A stretch of DNA of 64,000 nt from an uncultured Olsenella sp. (GTDB lineage: Bacteria; Actinomycetota; Coriobacteriia; Coriobacteriales; Atopobiaceae): positions 62,001 to 126,000 of the forward strand of contig OMVT01000002.1 of NCBI GenBank assembly GCA_900314535.1. Reading direction: 5' to 3'. Positions 17,825-24,193 of this stretch are shown here, piece after piece. Positions within the stretch are counted from its first letter, which is position 1. Every line of letters begins with the position of its first letter. Below the pieces are notes generated by a model that made no database searches, was not told the DNA's origin, and saw only the letters and a list, made by a program, of their open reading frames with translations. Both the position numbers and the translations under genes were made by a program.

Positions 17825-18616
17825 TTATGCCTCGTCTGCCGGAAAGATTCCGTACGCCTGGTCCCCTGCATGCTCGAAGCGCACAGCCGAGATGCCGAGC
17901 GATGCGGCAAGGACAGAGCTCCCTGCAATCTCTTCCGGAGTGCCTTTCGCCAGAAGCTGGGTCGGACGGGCACTGCCGAGCACGCAGATGCCATCGGAAA
18001 AGCGCAGGGCCAGATCCACATCGTGGGTCACGCAGACGATGGTCGTCCCCTGCTCATCCGCAAGCCTTCTCACGAGCTGCATGAGATCCAGGGCTGCTCT
18101 CACATCGAGATAGGTCGTCGGCTCGTCGAGCAGGAGCGTACGCGCTCCCTGCGCGACCGTCATGGCGAGAAACGCGCGCTGGCGCTCCCCGCCCGAAAGC
18201 TTCCTGGCATTCCTGTCTCTGAGCCCTTCCAGTCCCATGAGCGAGATCGCTTCGTCGACCTTGTCCCAGTCCGCCTTCTCCAGCTGGCCGAAGGGCCCCA
18301 TATGCGTATAGCGTCCGCAGGCAACCAGGTCCCTTACCTTCATCGACGGCGTCCTGTGCACCTGCGGAAGCATCGCCAGAAGCCCTGCCCGCTCCTTTGC
18401 AGAAAGGGAGAGCGTATCTGTGCCCGAGAGGAGCACCGCTCCGCAGGCAGGCTTCAGCATGCCCTCCGTCAGGGCAAGAAGCGTCGACTTGCCGCAGCCA
18501 TTGGGGCCGAGCACGGCCGTGATACCACCTTCGGGAATGGCAAGGGAAAAGCCCTCGAAGAGCTTGCGCTCCCCGTAGCCGAACGAGATGTCCTGGAACG
18601 TGAGCACATCACTCAT
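17825..18616 (-). CDS. ABC transporter ATPase, FecE/BtuD (iron-siderophore/tetrapyrrole) type
   Basis: 263 residues. Walker A LGPNGCGKSTLLAL (about residues 37-50), signature LSGGERQRAFLAM, Walker B LLLDEPTTYLD, switch His in VCVTHDVD. The YLD after the DEPT motif and the overall pattern are those of the FecE/FhuC/BtuD class. It overlaps the permease gene end by 8 bases. Last gene of the sulfite reductase-chelatase operon. Confidence 0.93.
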   Translation of the reverse strand: MSDVLTFQDISFGYGERKLFEGFSLAIPEGGITAVLGPNGCGKSTLLALTEGMLKPACGAVLLSGTDTLSLSAKERAGLLAMLPQVHRTPSMKVRDLVACGRYTHMGPFGQLEKADWDKVDEAISLMGLEGLRDRNARKLSGGERQRAFLAMTVAQGARTLLLDEPTTYLDVRAALDLMQLVRRLADEQGTTIVCVTHDVDLALRFSDGICVLGSARPTQLLAKGTPEEIAGSSVLAASLGISAVRFEHAGDQAYGIFPADEA

Positions 18617-19652
18617 CGCGGTACCCCTTCCCCTTCATGAGGAGGAAGATGAAGAAGGGACCGCCGATGGCAGACATCAGGATGCCGACCGGCAGTTCGT
18701 AGGGTGCAAAGAGCGTACGTGCCAGAAGATCTGCCAGGAGCGTGAAGGCAGCGCCCCAGAGCGCGGAGACCGGAATCACGCGTCTCAGGTCGTGCCCGAC
18801 GAAGCGTCTTGCCACATGGGGCACCATGAGGCCAATGAAGCCGATGAGGCCCGAGAAGCTCACGGAGGCTCCTGCCAGAAGCGAGGCAATCGTGAGGCCT
18901 GCTGCACGAAGGAGAGCCACCGGCACGCCGACCGCATGCGCCGCCTGGCTGCCGAGCGAAAGCACATTGAGACGTGGCGCCAGAAGAGAGGCAAGCACGA
19001 TGCCTGCGCAGATGAGGACGGCAGGCAGGCCGAGATCTGACATCACGATGCCGGAAAGCCCGCCCACAAGATAGGTGGAAGAGCCCAGATAGGCATTCGG
19101 CGCGATGATGAGGATGGCATTCATGCCTGCTGTGAAGACAGCATTCACGGCGACCCCTGCAAGCACGACCGTAAGCCTGGAGACGCCTGTCCGCAATGAC
19201 ACAAGCAGTATGAGTCCCGAAGCAACAAGGGCGCCCAAGAAGGCAGCAGCCGGAAGAGGCAGCGGCAGCGCGATACCGACCGTTGCCAGCGCGCTCACCG
19301 TGAGCACGGCGAGTCCTGCGCCCGAGTTCGCGCCGATGATGTTGGGGCTTGCGAGCGGATTGTCGAGCACCTCCTGGATGAGGGCACCCGAGACCGAGAA
19401 GGCGGCGCCCGCAAGGACTCCTGCCAGGACGCGGGGAATGCGGATCGAGACGAGGATGCTTCTTGCCTTTGCCGCCATATCCTGTCCTGTCGCAAGCGCC
19501 CAGACGTCGCCGACGCCGACACCGGAAGCGCCAAAGACAAGGCCCAGAAGGATCGCTGCCAGAAGCGCCCCGACAGAAAGAAGGGCCAGGGCACCGAAGC
19601 GCCTGCCTCTGTGCCCTGTCCTCTTCATCTCTTTGTTCTCAGCTGCAGCCAC
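18609..19652 (-). CDS. FecCD-family ABC transporter permease
   Basis: 347 residues, about ten membrane helices. FecCD motifs are VRIPRVLAGVLAGAAFSVSG (SIRIPRVL here), GALIQEVLDNPLASPNIIG, GSSTYLVGGLSG and GLIGFIGLMVPHVARRFVGH (the loop contacting the ATPase). Starts with GTG behind AAGGAAAG. Substrates of this family are ferric siderophores, haem or cobalamin; the neighbouring CbiK and siroheme enzyme favour iron or a tetrapyrrole, which is inference. Confidence 0.93.
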   Translation of the reverse strand: MAAAENKEMKRTGHRGRRFGALALLSVGALLAAILLGLVFGASGVGVGDVWALATGQDMAAKARSILVSIRIPRVLAGVLAGAAFSVSGALIQEVLDNPLASPNIIGANSGAGLAVLTVSALATVGIALPLPLPAAAFLGALVASGLILLVSLRTGVSRLTVVLAGVAVNAVFTAGMNAILIIAPNAYLGSSTYLVGGLSGIVMSDLGLPAVLICAGIVLASLLAPRLNVLSLGSQAAHAVGVPVALLRAAGLTIASLLAGASVSFSGLIGFIGLMVPHVARRFVGHDLRRVIPVSALWGAAFTLLADLLARTLFAPYELPVGILMSAIGGPFFIFLLMKGKGYRDE

Positions 19653-19660
19653 GGCTTTCC

Positions 19661-20668
19661 TTACTTGCTGAGCGCCTGGCCCACGATCTCATAGGACTCG
19701 GCCCACTTGTCGAGCGGCTTGTAGAGGAAGTGCGCCGCATCGAGCATCGTGACGCGTCCTTCCTTCATAGCGGTCAGGTCTGCCCAGGCAGAATCGGAGC
19801 CGACCGCGTCCTCATAGTACTGCTGTGCCGTCGCCTCATCGTCAGAGGCAGCAAGCACGAGGATGTAGTCAGGATCAGCCTCGACCACAGCCTCTGTGCT
19901 GAAGTCAGAAAGAAGGCTCGGATTCTCGTCTGCGGTATTCACGGCACCGAGGTCACGCACGATCGCTCCTGCCATGCCCGTCGAGTTCTGGACGACAAGG
20001 CCCTTCGAATAGGCGCTCACGACAAGCACGGTCGGCGCCTTGTCTGCGACGGAGTAGGTCTGGATGTCCGTATCGATCTGGCTCCTCACGTCGGCCACGT
20101 TCTGCTGGTAGAGGTCGTCCCTGCCTGTGATCTGGCAGAAGATTCCCATCATGCGCTCGTAGTCGGAAAACGTCGTGACCTTGAAGAAGGCAACGGGCAC
20201 GCCTGCCTCGTCGAGCGAGGATTCCAGGTCCTCCTGCGAGACGCCGGTCGCGTGCTTGCCGTCAGAGATGCCAGTCATAATGACAAAATCGGGATCGAGG
20301 TCAAGGATGCTCTCGAGATTGAGCGCTGTCGACTTGCCGACACCGGAAACGGCCGAAGAATCAACCCCGTAGTGCGCAAAGGCATCGTCCGAGGCACCGA
20401 CAAGGGTGCCGCCTGCGAGCTGCCAGGCGCCCGCAAAGGAGCCCATACAGGCAACAACGCGCTGCGGATTCGAGACCGTGACTTCGCGGCCCAGATCGTC
20501 CGTGAAGGTAACGCTCTGCGTGTCGGAAGCAGCAGACGTGCTCTGTGCATCGGACGAGGATGTGGTGGTCGAGGTCTGGCTGCAGGCAGGAAGCGCCACG
20601 AGGCTCGAGGCAAGCAGGAGCGTGGCTGCCACCGCGGCAGGGCGCACAAGACGGCTGTCATTCAGCAT
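19661..20668 (-). CDS. ABC transporter substrate-binding lipoprotein, FepB/BtuF type
   Basis: 335 residues. Lipoprotein signal ending LVALPACSQ (lipid-anchored Cys about residue 29), Ser/Thr linker, then a Peripla_BP_2 fold: VTFTDDLGREVTVSNPQRVV, the cluster IDTDIQTY, and the central long helix. It presents the substrate at the outer face of the membrane to the FecCD permease encoded next. No haem- or cobalamin-specific residue can be named from sequence alone. Confidence 0.9.
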   Translation of the reverse strand: MLNDSRLVRPAAVAATLLLASSLVALPACSQTSTTTSSSDAQSTSAASDTQSVTFTDDLGREVTVSNPQRVVACMGSFAGAWQLAGGTLVGASDDAFAHYGVDSSAVSGVGKSTALNLESILDLDPDFVIMTGISDGKHATGVSQEDLESSLDEAGVPVAFFKVTTFSDYERMMGIFCQITGRDDLYQQNVADVRSQIDTDIQTYSVADKAPTVLVVSAYSKGLVVQNSTGMAGAIVRDLGAVNTADENPSLLSDFSTEAVVEADPDYILVLAASDDEATAQQYYEDAVGSDSAWADLTAMKEGRVTMLDAAHFLYKPLDKWAESYEIVGQALSK

Positions 20669-20723
20669 GGAACGCTCTCTTTTCTGTCGATATCGGTATC
20701 AATGAAGATGCAGGCTGTCTGTC

Positions 20724-21506
20724 TCAACGGATGGCTTCGGCTTCCCGTGCATGGCGGACAAAGATGGCACTCACGCCCGGCAGGGAACCAAGGCCCGCCA
20801 GCATGCAATCCGTAGCAATGCCGGCTGCGTTCAAGCGCGATGTCCAGCTTGCTGCGCCCTCTCCCGCAAGCTGGCGGCGCACATGGCTTCCTGCCGTGAG
20901 CATGAGCGGGACAATTGTAGCCGAATGCGTACCATTGCGTACGAGCTTCTTCGCGACCTCGTCTGCATCGGGCGTGCCTTCCATGAGGCCGAGGGCAAAG
21001 TCGGTGCGCCCTGCTGCATGTAGCGCTTCTACAACACCTGCATAGGCGGCATCTGCCACGCCATTTGTCCCATGGCCCACCAGCACGAAGGAATGGCCCG
21101 GGACAGGCGGCAGGGCTTCGGCAAGAACCGAAGCCACCTCCATCTGGTCGCGCCAATCTGCGAGAAGCGGGCGTCCGAGGAGAAGGCCATCCGGAAAGCG
21201 TTCAGCAAGAGCCTGCGCTTCTGCTGCAAGCTTGTCCCACGCATCGCCGCAGACGATGAGGCCTGGCTGGACGATGGCTCGCGTGACGCCTTCGTCTGCA
21301 AGAGATGCAAGCGTCTCGCCGAGGCTTGCGGATGCAATGCCACGCTTTGCGAGATGCTCCCTCACCCAGGCACTTGTATAGGCCTCAGCAAAAGGCAGGC
21401 CGGCAAACGCATCCGCGAGCGCCTCTGCGACAGGCGCGGTGTCGGTCCTGCGCGCTTCATCCACAAGCGTGCCATAGCTTGCAAAGACGATGCCCTCACG
21501 CATCAT
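20724..21506 (-). CDS. cbiK: Anaerobic sirohydrochlorin chelatase CbiK
   Basis: 260 residues. Inserts cobalt (or iron) into sirohydrochlorin. CbiK features: GIVFASYGTLVDEAR at the N-terminus, YTSAWVREHLAKRG, VQPGLIVCGDAWDKL, VLVGHGTNGVADAAY, LMEGTPDADEV, and the metal His in VPLMLTAGSHVRRQLAGE. No other cobalamin gene lies in the window, while siroheme sulfite reductase is in the same operon, so iron insertion for siroheme is the better guess. Its start overlaps the JAMM gene stop (11 bases). Confidence 0.88.
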   Translation of the reverse strand: MMREGIVFASYGTLVDEARRTDTAPVAEALADAFAGLPFAEAYTSAWVREHLAKRGIASASLGETLASLADEGVTRAIVQPGLIVCGDAWDKLAAEAQALAERFPDGLLLGRPLLADWRDQMEVASVLAEALPPVPGHSFVLVGHGTNGVADAAYAGVVEALHAAGRTDFALGLMEGTPDADEVAKKLVRNGTHSATIVPLMLTAGSHVRRQLAGEGAASWTSRLNAAGIATDCMLAGLGSLPGVSAIFVRHAREAEAIR

Positions 21507-21915
21507 GGCTTACCAGCACTCTCGAGACAGCGCCGGATGCATCCTTCTGGTAGGCAACGATGGAAGGCCAGGCAGGCGCTTCGAGCGAGATGATGCAGTA
21601 GATGGCAGAAGGGTCCTGTGCAAGCCGCAGATCCTCCTCAGATGGTCTGGCAGGAGTCTCAGGGTGCGAGTGCCAGTTGCCCAAGATCTCCATGCCGGAG
21701 CTCCTGGCTTCCTTGAGGACCTTCAGCTGCTCTCTGGGCGAGATCGTGAAATGCTCTGCCGTATGGTCGGCATTCTCGCAGAAGAACACGTGCTCGACGA
21801 AGGCTTCGCCTTCCTCGTCGCGATAGCCAGCCAGAAGGCCGCAGGCCTCCTCGGGTGCATGCGAGCGTGCCCACTCTGCCATCTCGTGGAAGGTCTCGCC
21901 GCTCAGATGGAGCAT
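21496..21915 (-). CDS. JAMM/MPN+ metalloprotease (M67, Mec/HcyD type)
   Basis: 139 residues from the ATG at 21915, preceded by GAGAGGAGAGG; a start 30 bases earlier lacks a ribosome site. The full JAMM zinc motif is present: Glu in EAFVEHVFF and HSHPETPARPSEED (H-x-H-x7-S-x2-D, about residues 83-96). In M. tuberculosis (Mec+) and Wolinella (HcyD) such enzymes release or trim amino acids on ThiS-like sulfur carriers. Next to it lies a carrier whose C-terminus needs trimming (GGGR), which fits this role closely. Confidence 0.9.
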   Translation of the reverse strand: MLHLSGETFHEMAEWARSHAPEEACGLLAGYRDEEGEAFVEHVFFCENADHTAEHFTISPREQLKVLKEARSSGMEILGNWHSHPETPARPSEEDLRLAQDPSAIYCIISLEAPAWPSIVAYQKDASGAVSRVLVSHDA

Positions 21916-21925
21916 GCCTCTCCTC

Positions 21926-22753
21926 TCAGTCGAGCGCGGTGCCATGCTGCGCCAAAGAGCATGCTGGCTGCTCGTAGTCGATGAGCTCGGTCACGGTCGG
22001 ATGGTCTCCGCATACCGGGCAATTCGGATCTCTCGGCGGCAGCTTGATCGTGTGGAAGTCTCCCTTGAGCGCATCGAACGTGAGGAGCCTTCCTGTCAGA
22101 AGCTCACCTATGCCGCAGATGTATTTTATGGCTTCAAGCGCCTCGAGGCATCCGATAACACCGGCAATGGCGCCGATGACGCCCGCCTGTTTGCAGGTCG
22201 GCACGGCATCCTTCGGCGGCATGTCGTGGAAGACGCATCGGTAGCACGGTCCCTCTCCCGGCACATAGGTCATGAGCTGGCCCTTGAAGCGGATGATGCC
22301 GGCATGCACGAAGGGCTTTCTGCCCATGACGCAGGCATCGTTGATCAGGAACTTCGTCGGGAAGTTGTCGACGCCGTCGATAACGAAGTCATAGCCGGCA
22401 ATGAGGTCGGCGATGTTCGAGGAGTCGACGAACTCGCGATACGTCACGACATGCACGCCGGGATTGATATCGTGCAGGGTCTCTGCCGCACTTTCCACCT
22501 TGGGCTTGCCGATATCGGATGTCCCATGGATAATCTGGCGCTGCAGGTTCGAGAGCTCGACCTCGTCGGCATCCACGATGCCCAAGGTGCCGACGCCTGC
22601 TGCCGCAAGGTAGAGGGCAGCCGGGGCTCCGAGGCCGCCAGCACCGATGATCAGGACCTTGGCAGCGCAGAGCTTCTTCTGGCCCTTGACGCCGACCTCC
22701 TTGAGTATGATGTGGCGCGAATAGCGCTCGAGCTCGTCAGGAGAGAATGCCAT
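21926..22753 (-). CDS. E1-like ThiF/MoeB/HcyF adenylyltransferase
   Basis: 275 residues. Activates the C-terminal glycine of the ThiS-like carrier with ATP. The nucleotide-binding motif is VLIIGAGGLGAPAALYLAA (about residues 33-51), with the Arg finger region NLQRQIIHGTSDIG and adenylate Asp in DFVIDGVDNFPTK. Two zinc CxxC pairs are visible (CYRC, CPVC). The crossover-loop Cys area is TCKQAGVIG. It resembles MoeB/HcyF as well as ThiF; the gene context with JAMM and sulfite reductase favours the HcyF/CysO-type role rather than thiamine or molybdopterin. Confidence 0.9.
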   Translation of the reverse strand: MAFSPDELERYSRHIILKEVGVKGQKKLCAAKVLIIGAGGLGAPAALYLAAAGVGTLGIVDADEVELSNLQRQIIHGTSDIGKPKVESAAETLHDINPGVHVVTYREFVDSSNIADLIAGYDFVIDGVDNFPTKFLINDACVMGRKPFVHAGIIRFKGQLMTYVPGEGPCYRCVFHDMPPKDAVPTCKQAGVIGAIAGVIGCLEALEAIKYICGIGELLTGRLLTFDALKGDFHTIKLPPRDPNCPVCGDHPTVTELIDYEQPACSLAQHGTALD

Positions 22754-22755
22754 CT

Positions 22756-22962
22756 TTAGCGGCCTCCGCCCATGAAATAGAGGAATTCGACCGTATCCCC
22801 CTCGTGGAGCGCCGTCGTGGCAAAGGCGGAATGGTCGACGAACTCCTCGTTCACCGCGACCGTCACATATTCCGCGTTCTCCACCTTTTCGTCTGCGATG
22901 AGCTGGGCAAGCGTCTCCCTCTCGGGCACGCTCTTCTTCTCTCCGCCTACCGTGATGTTCAT
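22756..22962 (-). CDS. ThiS/MoaD/HcyS-type sulfur carrier with masked C-terminus
   Basis: 68 residues from the ATG at 22962, preceded by GGAAGGA; an upstream ATG at 22989 is possible. A beta-grasp ubiquitin-like protein (MNITVGGEKKSV, then YVTVAVNEEFVD, then EGDTVEFLYFMGGGR). The carrier must end in Gly-Gly to be adenylated and thiocarboxylated. Here an extra Arg follows the glycines, so proteolytic removal is needed first, and a JAMM protease is encoded two genes later. This is the arrangement of the Wolinella HcyS system for homocysteine. Confidence 0.9.
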   Translation of the reverse strand: MNITVGGEKKSVPERETLAQLIADEKVENAEYVTVAVNEEFVDHSAFATTALHEGDTVEFLYFMGGGR

Positions 22963-22999: not shown

Positions 23000-23254
23000 C
23001 TATTCGTCTTCGAGCTTCTTCACGTCGAGGTCGTAGGCGCCGTCCTCTGCTTCCTTGAGAGAGAGCACCTTCTGTCCGTCATCGGCAAAGCTCCTCGGCA
23101 CGTTCTGCATCGGCTCGCCTGCCGCCAGATGCACCCTCAGCACCTCGCCGATCTCGAGCTCTGCCAGTGCTGCCTTCGCTGTCACGAATGTCATCGGGCA
23201 CACCAGATCCGTAATATCGACGGTGTCCGCTATCTCATATGCACTCTCAGCCAT
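23000..23254 (-). CDS. TusA/SirA-family sulfur transfer protein
   Basis: 84 residues. TusA fold with the catalytic Cys in TDLVCPMTFVTAKAALAEL (about residue 19), followed by GEVLRVHLAAGEP. It would pass persulfide or sulfide-level sulfur between the sulfite reductase/cysteine desulfurase side and the carrier protein. It lies 9 bases after the sulfite reductase gene. Confidence 0.9.
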   Translation of the reverse strand: MAESAYEIADTVDITDLVCPMTFVTAKAALAELEIGEVLRVHLAAGEPMQNVPRSFADDGQKVLSLKEAEDGAYDLDVKKLEDE

Positions 23255-23263
23255 GGAAACCCC

Positions 23264-24193
23264 CTACTGGGCAGCCGGCGCTGCCGGCTCGACCTCTACC
23301 GAATCGGCCTTGGGGCAGCCCTCGGGCGCCGCCTCGTCGTAGGCCTTCCTGACCACCGGCACGAAGCTCTCCCATCCTTCGCGGTCGAGACAGAACTTGA
23401 AGCGGTCGCCGGCAACCGCATGGTCGTCGTACCACTGGATCGTCGCATCGGCCACGGCGAGCAGCTGCTCGTCGGACTCCACGGGCGGCAGGAGCTTCCT
23501 GCCCTTCGTGATGTGGTTGCCAAAGAGGCCGCCGAACGTGAGGTTGTAGACCATCTGGTAGTTCCAGGAGGCGACCGGGCACTTCTGCGAGCACTTGCCG
23601 CAGGAGACGCACTTCGTGTAGTCGACGACGATCTTCTCCCCGTCATCCGTGATGGCCTGGGGCTTGCAGACCTTGGAGCAGATGCCGCAGTGGATGCAGG
23701 CATCCGGCTTCCACTGGACCTTCCTGCCGCCCTTGATGCCGAGATCGTTCTCCTCGGCCTTGAGGCAGTTGTTCTGGCAGCCCGTGACGCCGAACTTGAA
23801 CTTGCCCGGAAGATCGCGTCCGAAGTAGCGCTCATCGAGCATCGTCGCGACCTTGCAGGAATCGATATTGCCGGAGGGGCATACCGCGCTGCCCTGGCAG
23901 CCTGTGACCGTGCGTACGCGCGCTCCGCAGCAGCCCGGCTCGACACCGTATTCTGCAAGCAGGGCCTTCACGGCATCAGCGTCCTCAACCTTGATGAAAG
24001 GAATCTCGATGGCCTGGCGGCTCGTCAGATGGATGTAGCCATGGCCGAAGGCGTCAGCCACCTTGGAGATGCCGATAAGCTGGCAGGCATCCAGATGTCC
24101 TGCCGTGATATGGAGGCGCAGCGAGTAGAAGCCTTTCTGCTTCTGCGCCATGAAGCCGCCCTTCTTGAGCGCGGCATTGTCGATCTTTGCCAT
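23264..24193 (-). CDS. Siroheme sulfite reductase, small assimilatory type with fused ferredoxin domain
   Basis: 309 residues. N-terminal half-domain (FYSLRLHITAGHLDACQL, then IHLTSRQAIEIPF), then the siroheme/4Fe-4S ligand motif TGCQGSAVC and GCQNNC (C-x5-C, C-x3-C; about residues 96-145). It ends with two 4Fe-4S ferredoxin motifs CIHCGICSKVCKP and CVSCGKCSQKCP. Reduces sulfite to sulfide in the cytoplasm; the single-subunit short form occurs in strict anaerobes and in the Wolinella homocysteine cluster. First gene of a nine-gene operon and the only enzyme there needing siroheme, consistent with cbiK downstream. Confidence 0.9.
   Translation of the reverse strand: MAKIDNAALKKGGFMAQKQKGFYSLRLHITAGHLDACQLIGISKVADAFGHGYIHLTSRQAIEIPFIKVEDADAVKALLAEYGVEPGCCGARVRTVTGCQGSAVCPSGNIDSCKVATMLDERYFGRDLPGKFKFGVTGCQNNCLKAEENDLGIKGGRKVQWKPDACIHCGICSKVCKPQAITDDGEKIVVDYTKCVSCGKCSQKCPVASWNYQMVYNLTFGGLFGNHITKGRKLLPPVESDEQLLAVADATIQWYDDHAVAGDRFKFCLDREGWESFVPVVRKAYDEAAPEGCPKADSVEVEPAAPAAQ

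Follow-up and report, generated by a model that had tools for sequence, protein, structure and literature searches.

A ThiS-type sulfur carrier with a C-terminal arginine cap is encoded beside a JAMM protease in a sulfite reductase operon of an uncultured Olsenella sp.

Gene content of the operon

The window, a 64,000-nt stretch of a contig from an uncultured Olsenella sp., carries on its minus strand, in transcriptional order, genes for a sulfite reductase, a TusA-family protein, a ThiS-type sulfur carrier, an E1-like adenylyltransferase, a JAMM protease and a CbiK-type chelatase (Table 1). The carrier frame translates as MNITVGGEKK...VEFLYFMGGGR followed by a stop codon, and a good ribosome site, GGAAGGACAGCCATG, lies upstream of its ATG at 22962. 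The ThiS model TIGR01683 matched the carrier over the full model with 65.7 bits (cut-off 37.45), and PF02597 matched with 48.3 bits. The TIGR01683 alignment ends at the third glycine, which places Arg68 one residue past the end of the family and bears out the earlier note, which had pointed to an arginine after three glycines. The note had also asked whether a frame or sequence error at the 3′ end could account for this ending. Such an error is very unlikely, since GGGR recurs in independent assemblies from the same genus (L003), family (L005) and order (L007); the carriers of relatives at these ranks end in GGGR, GGGC or GGGAR. A GGG end is not unusual in itself, being found in a thiamine ThiS from the same order (FVGGG). 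Thiamine ThiS proteins end in GG without extension and work with ThiG and ThiF. We rejected this identity for the carrier because Arg follows GGG and the operon contains no thiamine gene, its content being sulfite reductase, TusA and JAMM.

Table 1. Features of the operon, in window coordinates
Feature	Position	Strand	Remarks
Siroheme/4Fe-4S sulfite reductase, AsrC-like	23264..24193	(-)	309 aa
TusA-family sulfurtransferase	23000..23254	(-)	84 aa
ThiS-type sulfur carrier	22756..22962	(-)	68 aa, ends FMGGGR; translation and profile matches
GGG codons (GGC GGA GGC)	22762..22770	(-)	Gly65-Gly66-Gly67; cut predicted after third Gly, putative role
Arg codon CGC	22759..22761	(-)	One-residue cap after Gly65-Gly66-Gly67
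Carrier stop TAA	22758-22756	(-)	
E1-like adenylyltransferase (MoeB/ThiF type)	21926..22753	(-)	275 aa; GAGGLG, two CxxC, CKQAG
JAMM/Prok-JAB metalloprotease	21496..21945	(-)	149 aa; EACG and HSHx7SxxD intact
CbiK-type sirohydrochlorin chelatase	20724..21506	(-)	Overlaps the end of the JAMM gene

The operon E1 consists of a ThiF domain only, without a rhodanese domain. The earlier note had also placed a JAMM protease with an intact motif in the operon; the corresponding gene was found two genes downstream of the carrier, with HSHPETPARPSEED (HSHx7SxxD) at residues 92-105 of the 149-aa ORF 21945..21496 and the upstream Glu in EACG. The catalytic Glu, both His, the Ser and the Asp were invariant in 78/78 relatives. 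Among NCBIfam models, that of the haloarchaeal desampylase scored best against the JAMM protein, though its 74 bits were far under the cut-off of 130; the protein also resembles solved JAMM1 structures. Across the window's own genome, the carrier was the sole ThiS-family match, the operon JAMM the sole Prok-JAB match and the operon E1 the sole E1 of MoeB/ThiF strength, accompanied by one weaker E1-fold protein; with one of each in the genome, none of the three has an alternative partner of these kinds. The CbiK-type chelatase plausibly feeds siroheme to the sulfite reductase. The region 17825-21506 encodes, on the same strand, this chelatase followed by a periplasmic binding protein and an iron/cobalamin-type ABC transporter, and the genes of this region may belong to the siroheme or iron supply of the sulfite reductase.

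Comparison with known systems

Gene associations of this type were described by Iyer, Burroughs and Aravind (2006) as class 4e, in which a ThiS/MoaD-like protein and a JAB protein are joined by an E1 that always lacks a rhodanese domain and always by SirA (TusA). Genes for sulfite reductase and O-acetylhomoserine sulfhydrylase accompany them, and organisms with such operons include Wolinella and Geobacter metallireducens (PMC1779556). The operon of the window combines carrier, JAB and E1 genes, an E1 free of a rhodanese domain, an adjacent TusA gene and a sulfite reductase gene, so that all core genes are common to both. It differs from class 4e in that no gene for O-acetylhomoserine sulfhydrylase, ATP sulfurylase or PAPS reductase is adjacent, a CbiK chelatase gene being present instead.

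For Wolinella, methionine synthesis via a protein thiocarboxylate is mentioned, as a cited result, in passages of PMC6225789 and PMC6271081. The Wolinella Hcy cluster resembles the operon of the window in bringing together a capped carrier, an E1, a JAMM and a sulfite reductase. It differs in its cap, which in HcyS is reportedly Ala where the window carrier has Arg; in addition, MetY is unlinked in the window's genome. QbsE/QbsD of thioquinolobactin synthesis and PtmS2/PtmS1 of thioplatensimycin synthesis likewise have carriers that extend past GG, with a JAMM gene in the vicinity; the Ptm strain has MV or C as caps. These systems serve siderophore or antibiotic pathways, unlike the window operon. 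Carriers of the QbsE, PtmS2 and HcyS type and the carrier of the window thus have in common residues past GG (here GGGR) and a linked JAMM with Glu, His, His, Ser and Asp intact. The need of capped carriers for a JAMM protease has already been stated in print, with QbsD as the cited precedent (PMC6006322); what the survey below adds is that the presence of the cap is kept while its letters drift.

A basic cap is also found in a solved structure. The 'ThiS' protein of PDB entries 2k5p and 3cwi, presumably that of Geobacter metallireducens, matched the carrier over its full length (E = 2e-14). It ends FLYFMGGGK, with a single basic residue as its cap; the 8 residues that follow K70 are probably an expression tag. 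We know of no functional study of this protein.

Survey of caps and JAMM linkage

Carriers were collected by searching with a query truncated ahead of the cap, by examining the genomes in which these loci lie and by drawing across the phylum with the ThiS model; all were then read with their flanks. Removal of duplicates left 224 unique ThiS-type carriers. A carrier was counted as JAMM-linked when an intact JAMM gene lay on the same strand within 4 kb. Residues after GG(G) were present in 101/101 JAMM-linked ThiS-type carriers, two of these being second carriers that lie some 3 kb away from a first one. Among the 114 JAMM-unlinked carriers whose flanks were long enough, 103 stopped at GG or GGG and 11 were capped. 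When the count was confined to the phylum draw, which is blind to tails, 20/20 JAMM-linked carriers were capped, and the JAMM-unlinked ones comprised 76 tail-less and 7 capped carriers. Twelve genomes contained two ThiS copies; the JAMM-linked copy was capped in 12/12, and the other copy was tail-less in nine.

Most genomes with an unlinked capped carrier had a strong JAMM gene elsewhere, at 4 kb in G827, 7 kb in G707 and 25 kb in G674. A convincing JAMM was not found in genomes G618, G765 and G842, each with a capped carrier, and the capped carriers of G765 and G842 adjoin genes that read as aldehyde ferredoxin oxidoreductase-like. A strong JAMM gene was present in 4/30 genomes whose carriers are all tail-less. 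A raw Fisher test of cap against JAMM gave p of about 1e-49, a value on which we do not rely. The carrier tree has only about 6 changes in cap state and about 6 in JAMM state, with at most 2 supported independent pairs of changes, so the raw p overstates the evidence; corrected for the tree, the association rests on few events.

Several carriers with Cys-containing tails were observed apart from JAMM genes. Two ThiS/MoaD-like proteins ending SGGC (L323:2460-2657 and L326:2508-2726) have aldehyde ferredoxin oxidoreductase-like genes as neighbors, and their genomes lack a convincing JAMM; caps C (L237:1998-2222), CCQPKCC (L266:2447-2731) and CR (L235:1473-1703) occur without an adjacent JAMM in genomes that have one elsewhere. 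Apparent sulfite reductases by tail-less L278 and C-tailed L323 were discarded as weak ferredoxin-type matches beside aldehyde ferredoxin oxidoreductase-like ORFs, not sulfur-assimilation operons; those by tail-less L308, L319 and L322 and by C-tailed L326 look alike, judging by weak matches.

We considered whether the JAMM might only free the product amino acid, as Mec does with CysO-Cys, or de-conjugate the carrier from proteins, Arg68 being removed by a general carboxypeptidase or never. The CysO/Mec system of the Mycobacterium type resembles the window in pairing a UBL carrier with a JAMM gene, and the partner of CysO is CysM. CysO-type carriers by a JAMM end in VAGG without a cap in several of the actinobacteria surveyed (L143, L145, L152, L157), so JAMM linkage alone does not require a cap and a JAMM neighbour need not mean trimming; the desampylase model as best match of the window's JAMM also favors release or de-conjugation. 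What makes this explanation improbable is that JAMM-linked ThiS-type carriers were capped without exception, that the whole-enzyme caps described below are beyond removal by a carboxypeptidase and that, in the established activation chemistry of ThiS and MoaD, a terminal Gly followed by further residues has no free carboxylate for adenylation. The uncapped CysO carriers are explained by the other known job of JAMM enzymes, amino acid release, and they do not weaken the case that a carrier with a cap must be trimmed. Other JAMM-adjacent CysO-type carriers were capped with MA, MS or C, the ends VAGGMA and VAGGMS occurring in part of the set L133, L134, L136, L138, L143, L145, L152 and L157.

Natural fusions

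Some carrier frames continue into a whole enzyme. In L292:2490-3545, the frame passes from GGG straight into E1 without a stop, and ATG, GTG and TTG codons are absent before the E1 core; the JAMM gene is next. L313:2418-3497 has the same arrangement, including the neighboring JAMM gene and a carrier frame without a stop, with a short linker that contains possible GTG and TTG codons. In L149:1886-3037, the carrier passes through GGG into a cysteine-synthase-family enzyme (CysK), and the JAMM gene is immediately upstream. With the carrier fused through GGG to an enzyme, a cut after GGG is needed for a free C-terminus. Most of the long-tail sequences come from MAGs, and each fusion rests on one assembly.

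The partner proteins were found fused as well. The JAMM is joined to an AsrC-like sulfite reductase in L301:417-1703, L304:3456-4739 and L310, and a MetY-type PLP enzyme is joined to sulfite reductase in an Olsenella MAG (L011:8086-10422; L016 is the same locus), in an open frame of 778 aa in which the N-terminal part of the MetY domain is unmatched. These fusions tie the protease to the sulfite reductase pathway. They also bear on the idea that the carrier is a ubiquitin-like protein modifier, similar to those of the Bil and SAMP systems, with the JAMM as its processing and de-conjugating enzyme, and not a sulfur donor. The trio of UBL, E1 and JAMM is present, the JAMM resembles the desampylase and JAMM1 proteins, and in the Bil system the C-terminal Gly of the UBL BilA is uncovered by the JAMM enzyme BilC (PMC11354881). 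In contrast to Bil and other ubiquitin-like conjugation systems, no E2-like gene was found in the operon and the carrier is a single beta-grasp protein instead of a tandem UBL. Together with the sulfite reductase and TusA genes of the operon, the MetY genes of relatives and the fusions of JAMM or MetY to sulfite reductase, this makes a modifier function highly improbable.

Identity and retention of the cap

The caps counted were Q (22), R (20), AR (9), RA (4), C (3), SR (3) and many rarer ones; 48 were of one residue and 35 of two. Among relatives, the presence of a cap is kept and its identity is nearly free. We therefore did not retain the idea that the basic cap, which the earlier note contrasted with an alanine cap, is new or special: Arg is among the commonest caps, Gln and many others occur, and the solved relative ends GGGK. 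A tree of the E1 proteins from 99 operons implies at least 39 changes in the first residue of the cap and zero cap losses. One transition (CAG or CAA to a stop) would delete a cap, and about 3-4 stop-gains per 39 missense changes are expected from the observed codons if stops are harmless, against zero seen (P about 0.02-0.06). The lack of stop-gains is suggestive, not conclusive.

The extra codon could alternatively be a by-product of translational coupling, the GGNGGN codons acting as the E1 ribosome site and the codon filling the spacer. Within the GGG codons of the window carrier, GGAGG (22767-22763) is indeed also placed as an E1 ribosome site, 9 nt 5′ of the ATG, and in most relatives 26 nt separate the carrier stop from the E1 core motif. 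The spacing from GGAGG to ATG is nevertheless independent of where between them the stop lies, which leaves the absence of JAMM-linked stops right after GGG unexplained, and carriers with a far-off E1 (gaps of 50-144 nt, or 977 nt) are capped as well. We consider coupling a very poor candidate for the origin of the caps; it may explain their shortness, not their presence.

Discussion

The gene set, the cap, the intact catalytic motifs and a cap conserved in presence and not in identity are read directly from the genomes. The catalytic steps, the cut site and the product are predictions from them. The reading we favor, with a probability of roughly 0.86, is that the carrier is an Arg-capped inactive precursor that the JAMM trims and the E1 adenylates, after which its thiocarboxylate gives sulfur to an amino acid. 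The carrier would be translated as an inactive precursor with the one-residue cap Arg68, and the co-encoded JAMM would remove Arg68 to expose the Gly67 carboxylate, which the co-encoded E1 would adenylate. The adenylated carrier would then be converted to the thiocarboxylate with sulfur from sulfite reductase and/or a TusA persulfide. In most relatives, the thiocarboxylate would pass its sulfur to O-acetylhomoserine as the activated amino acid, yielding homocysteine, and cysteine is a possible product in the organism of the window. The same JAMM probably also frees the finished amino acid from the carrier.

A protease-dependent maturation of the carrier, as predicted from sequence, is well supported. 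Of the protease-gated activation proposed by the earlier note, trimming before adenylation remains the best reading, given the capped carrier beside an intact JAMM, the 101/101 JAMM-linked carriers with caps and the whole-enzyme caps; gating in the sense of a regulated step draws no support from these data. We tentatively raise, as a rather doubtful extension, that the cap acts as a lock that is actively maintained whatever its sequence. Selection would hold on to a residue after GGG and let its identity drift. Only a carrier that had met its own JAMM would then be chargeable, and removal of the cap might serve as a control point (for example, for zinc or sulfur status) or as insulation from other E1 enzymes.

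With regard to the product, a MetY-type enzyme was linked in 61/75 operons with wide flanks, including that of the same-genus genome G001. Neither the window nor the same-genus genome G002 showed a linked MetY of the operon type; in G002, ORFs 5′ of the sulfite reductase gene read, in an annotation by eye, as a sulfonate-type ABC transporter. Elsewhere in the window's own genome, we found a cysteine synthase-like protein and two canonical TIGR01326 O-acetylhomoserine sulfhydrylases (MetY), which share only about 33-39% identity with MetY of the operon type. Across the group, the product is likely to be homocysteine, and either homocysteine or cysteine is possible for the window's genome.

These observations extend the JAMM-matured sulfur-carrier route to rumen-type Coriobacteriia. 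Carriers of this kind are also common in gut Clostridia (Ruminococcus, Lachnospiraceae), where the model for plain thiamine ThiS picks them up. In annotation, finding a linked JAMM together with residues past the GG of a ThiS-type carrier would point to sulfur amino-acid synthesis via a protein thiocarboxylate, not to thiamine synthesis.
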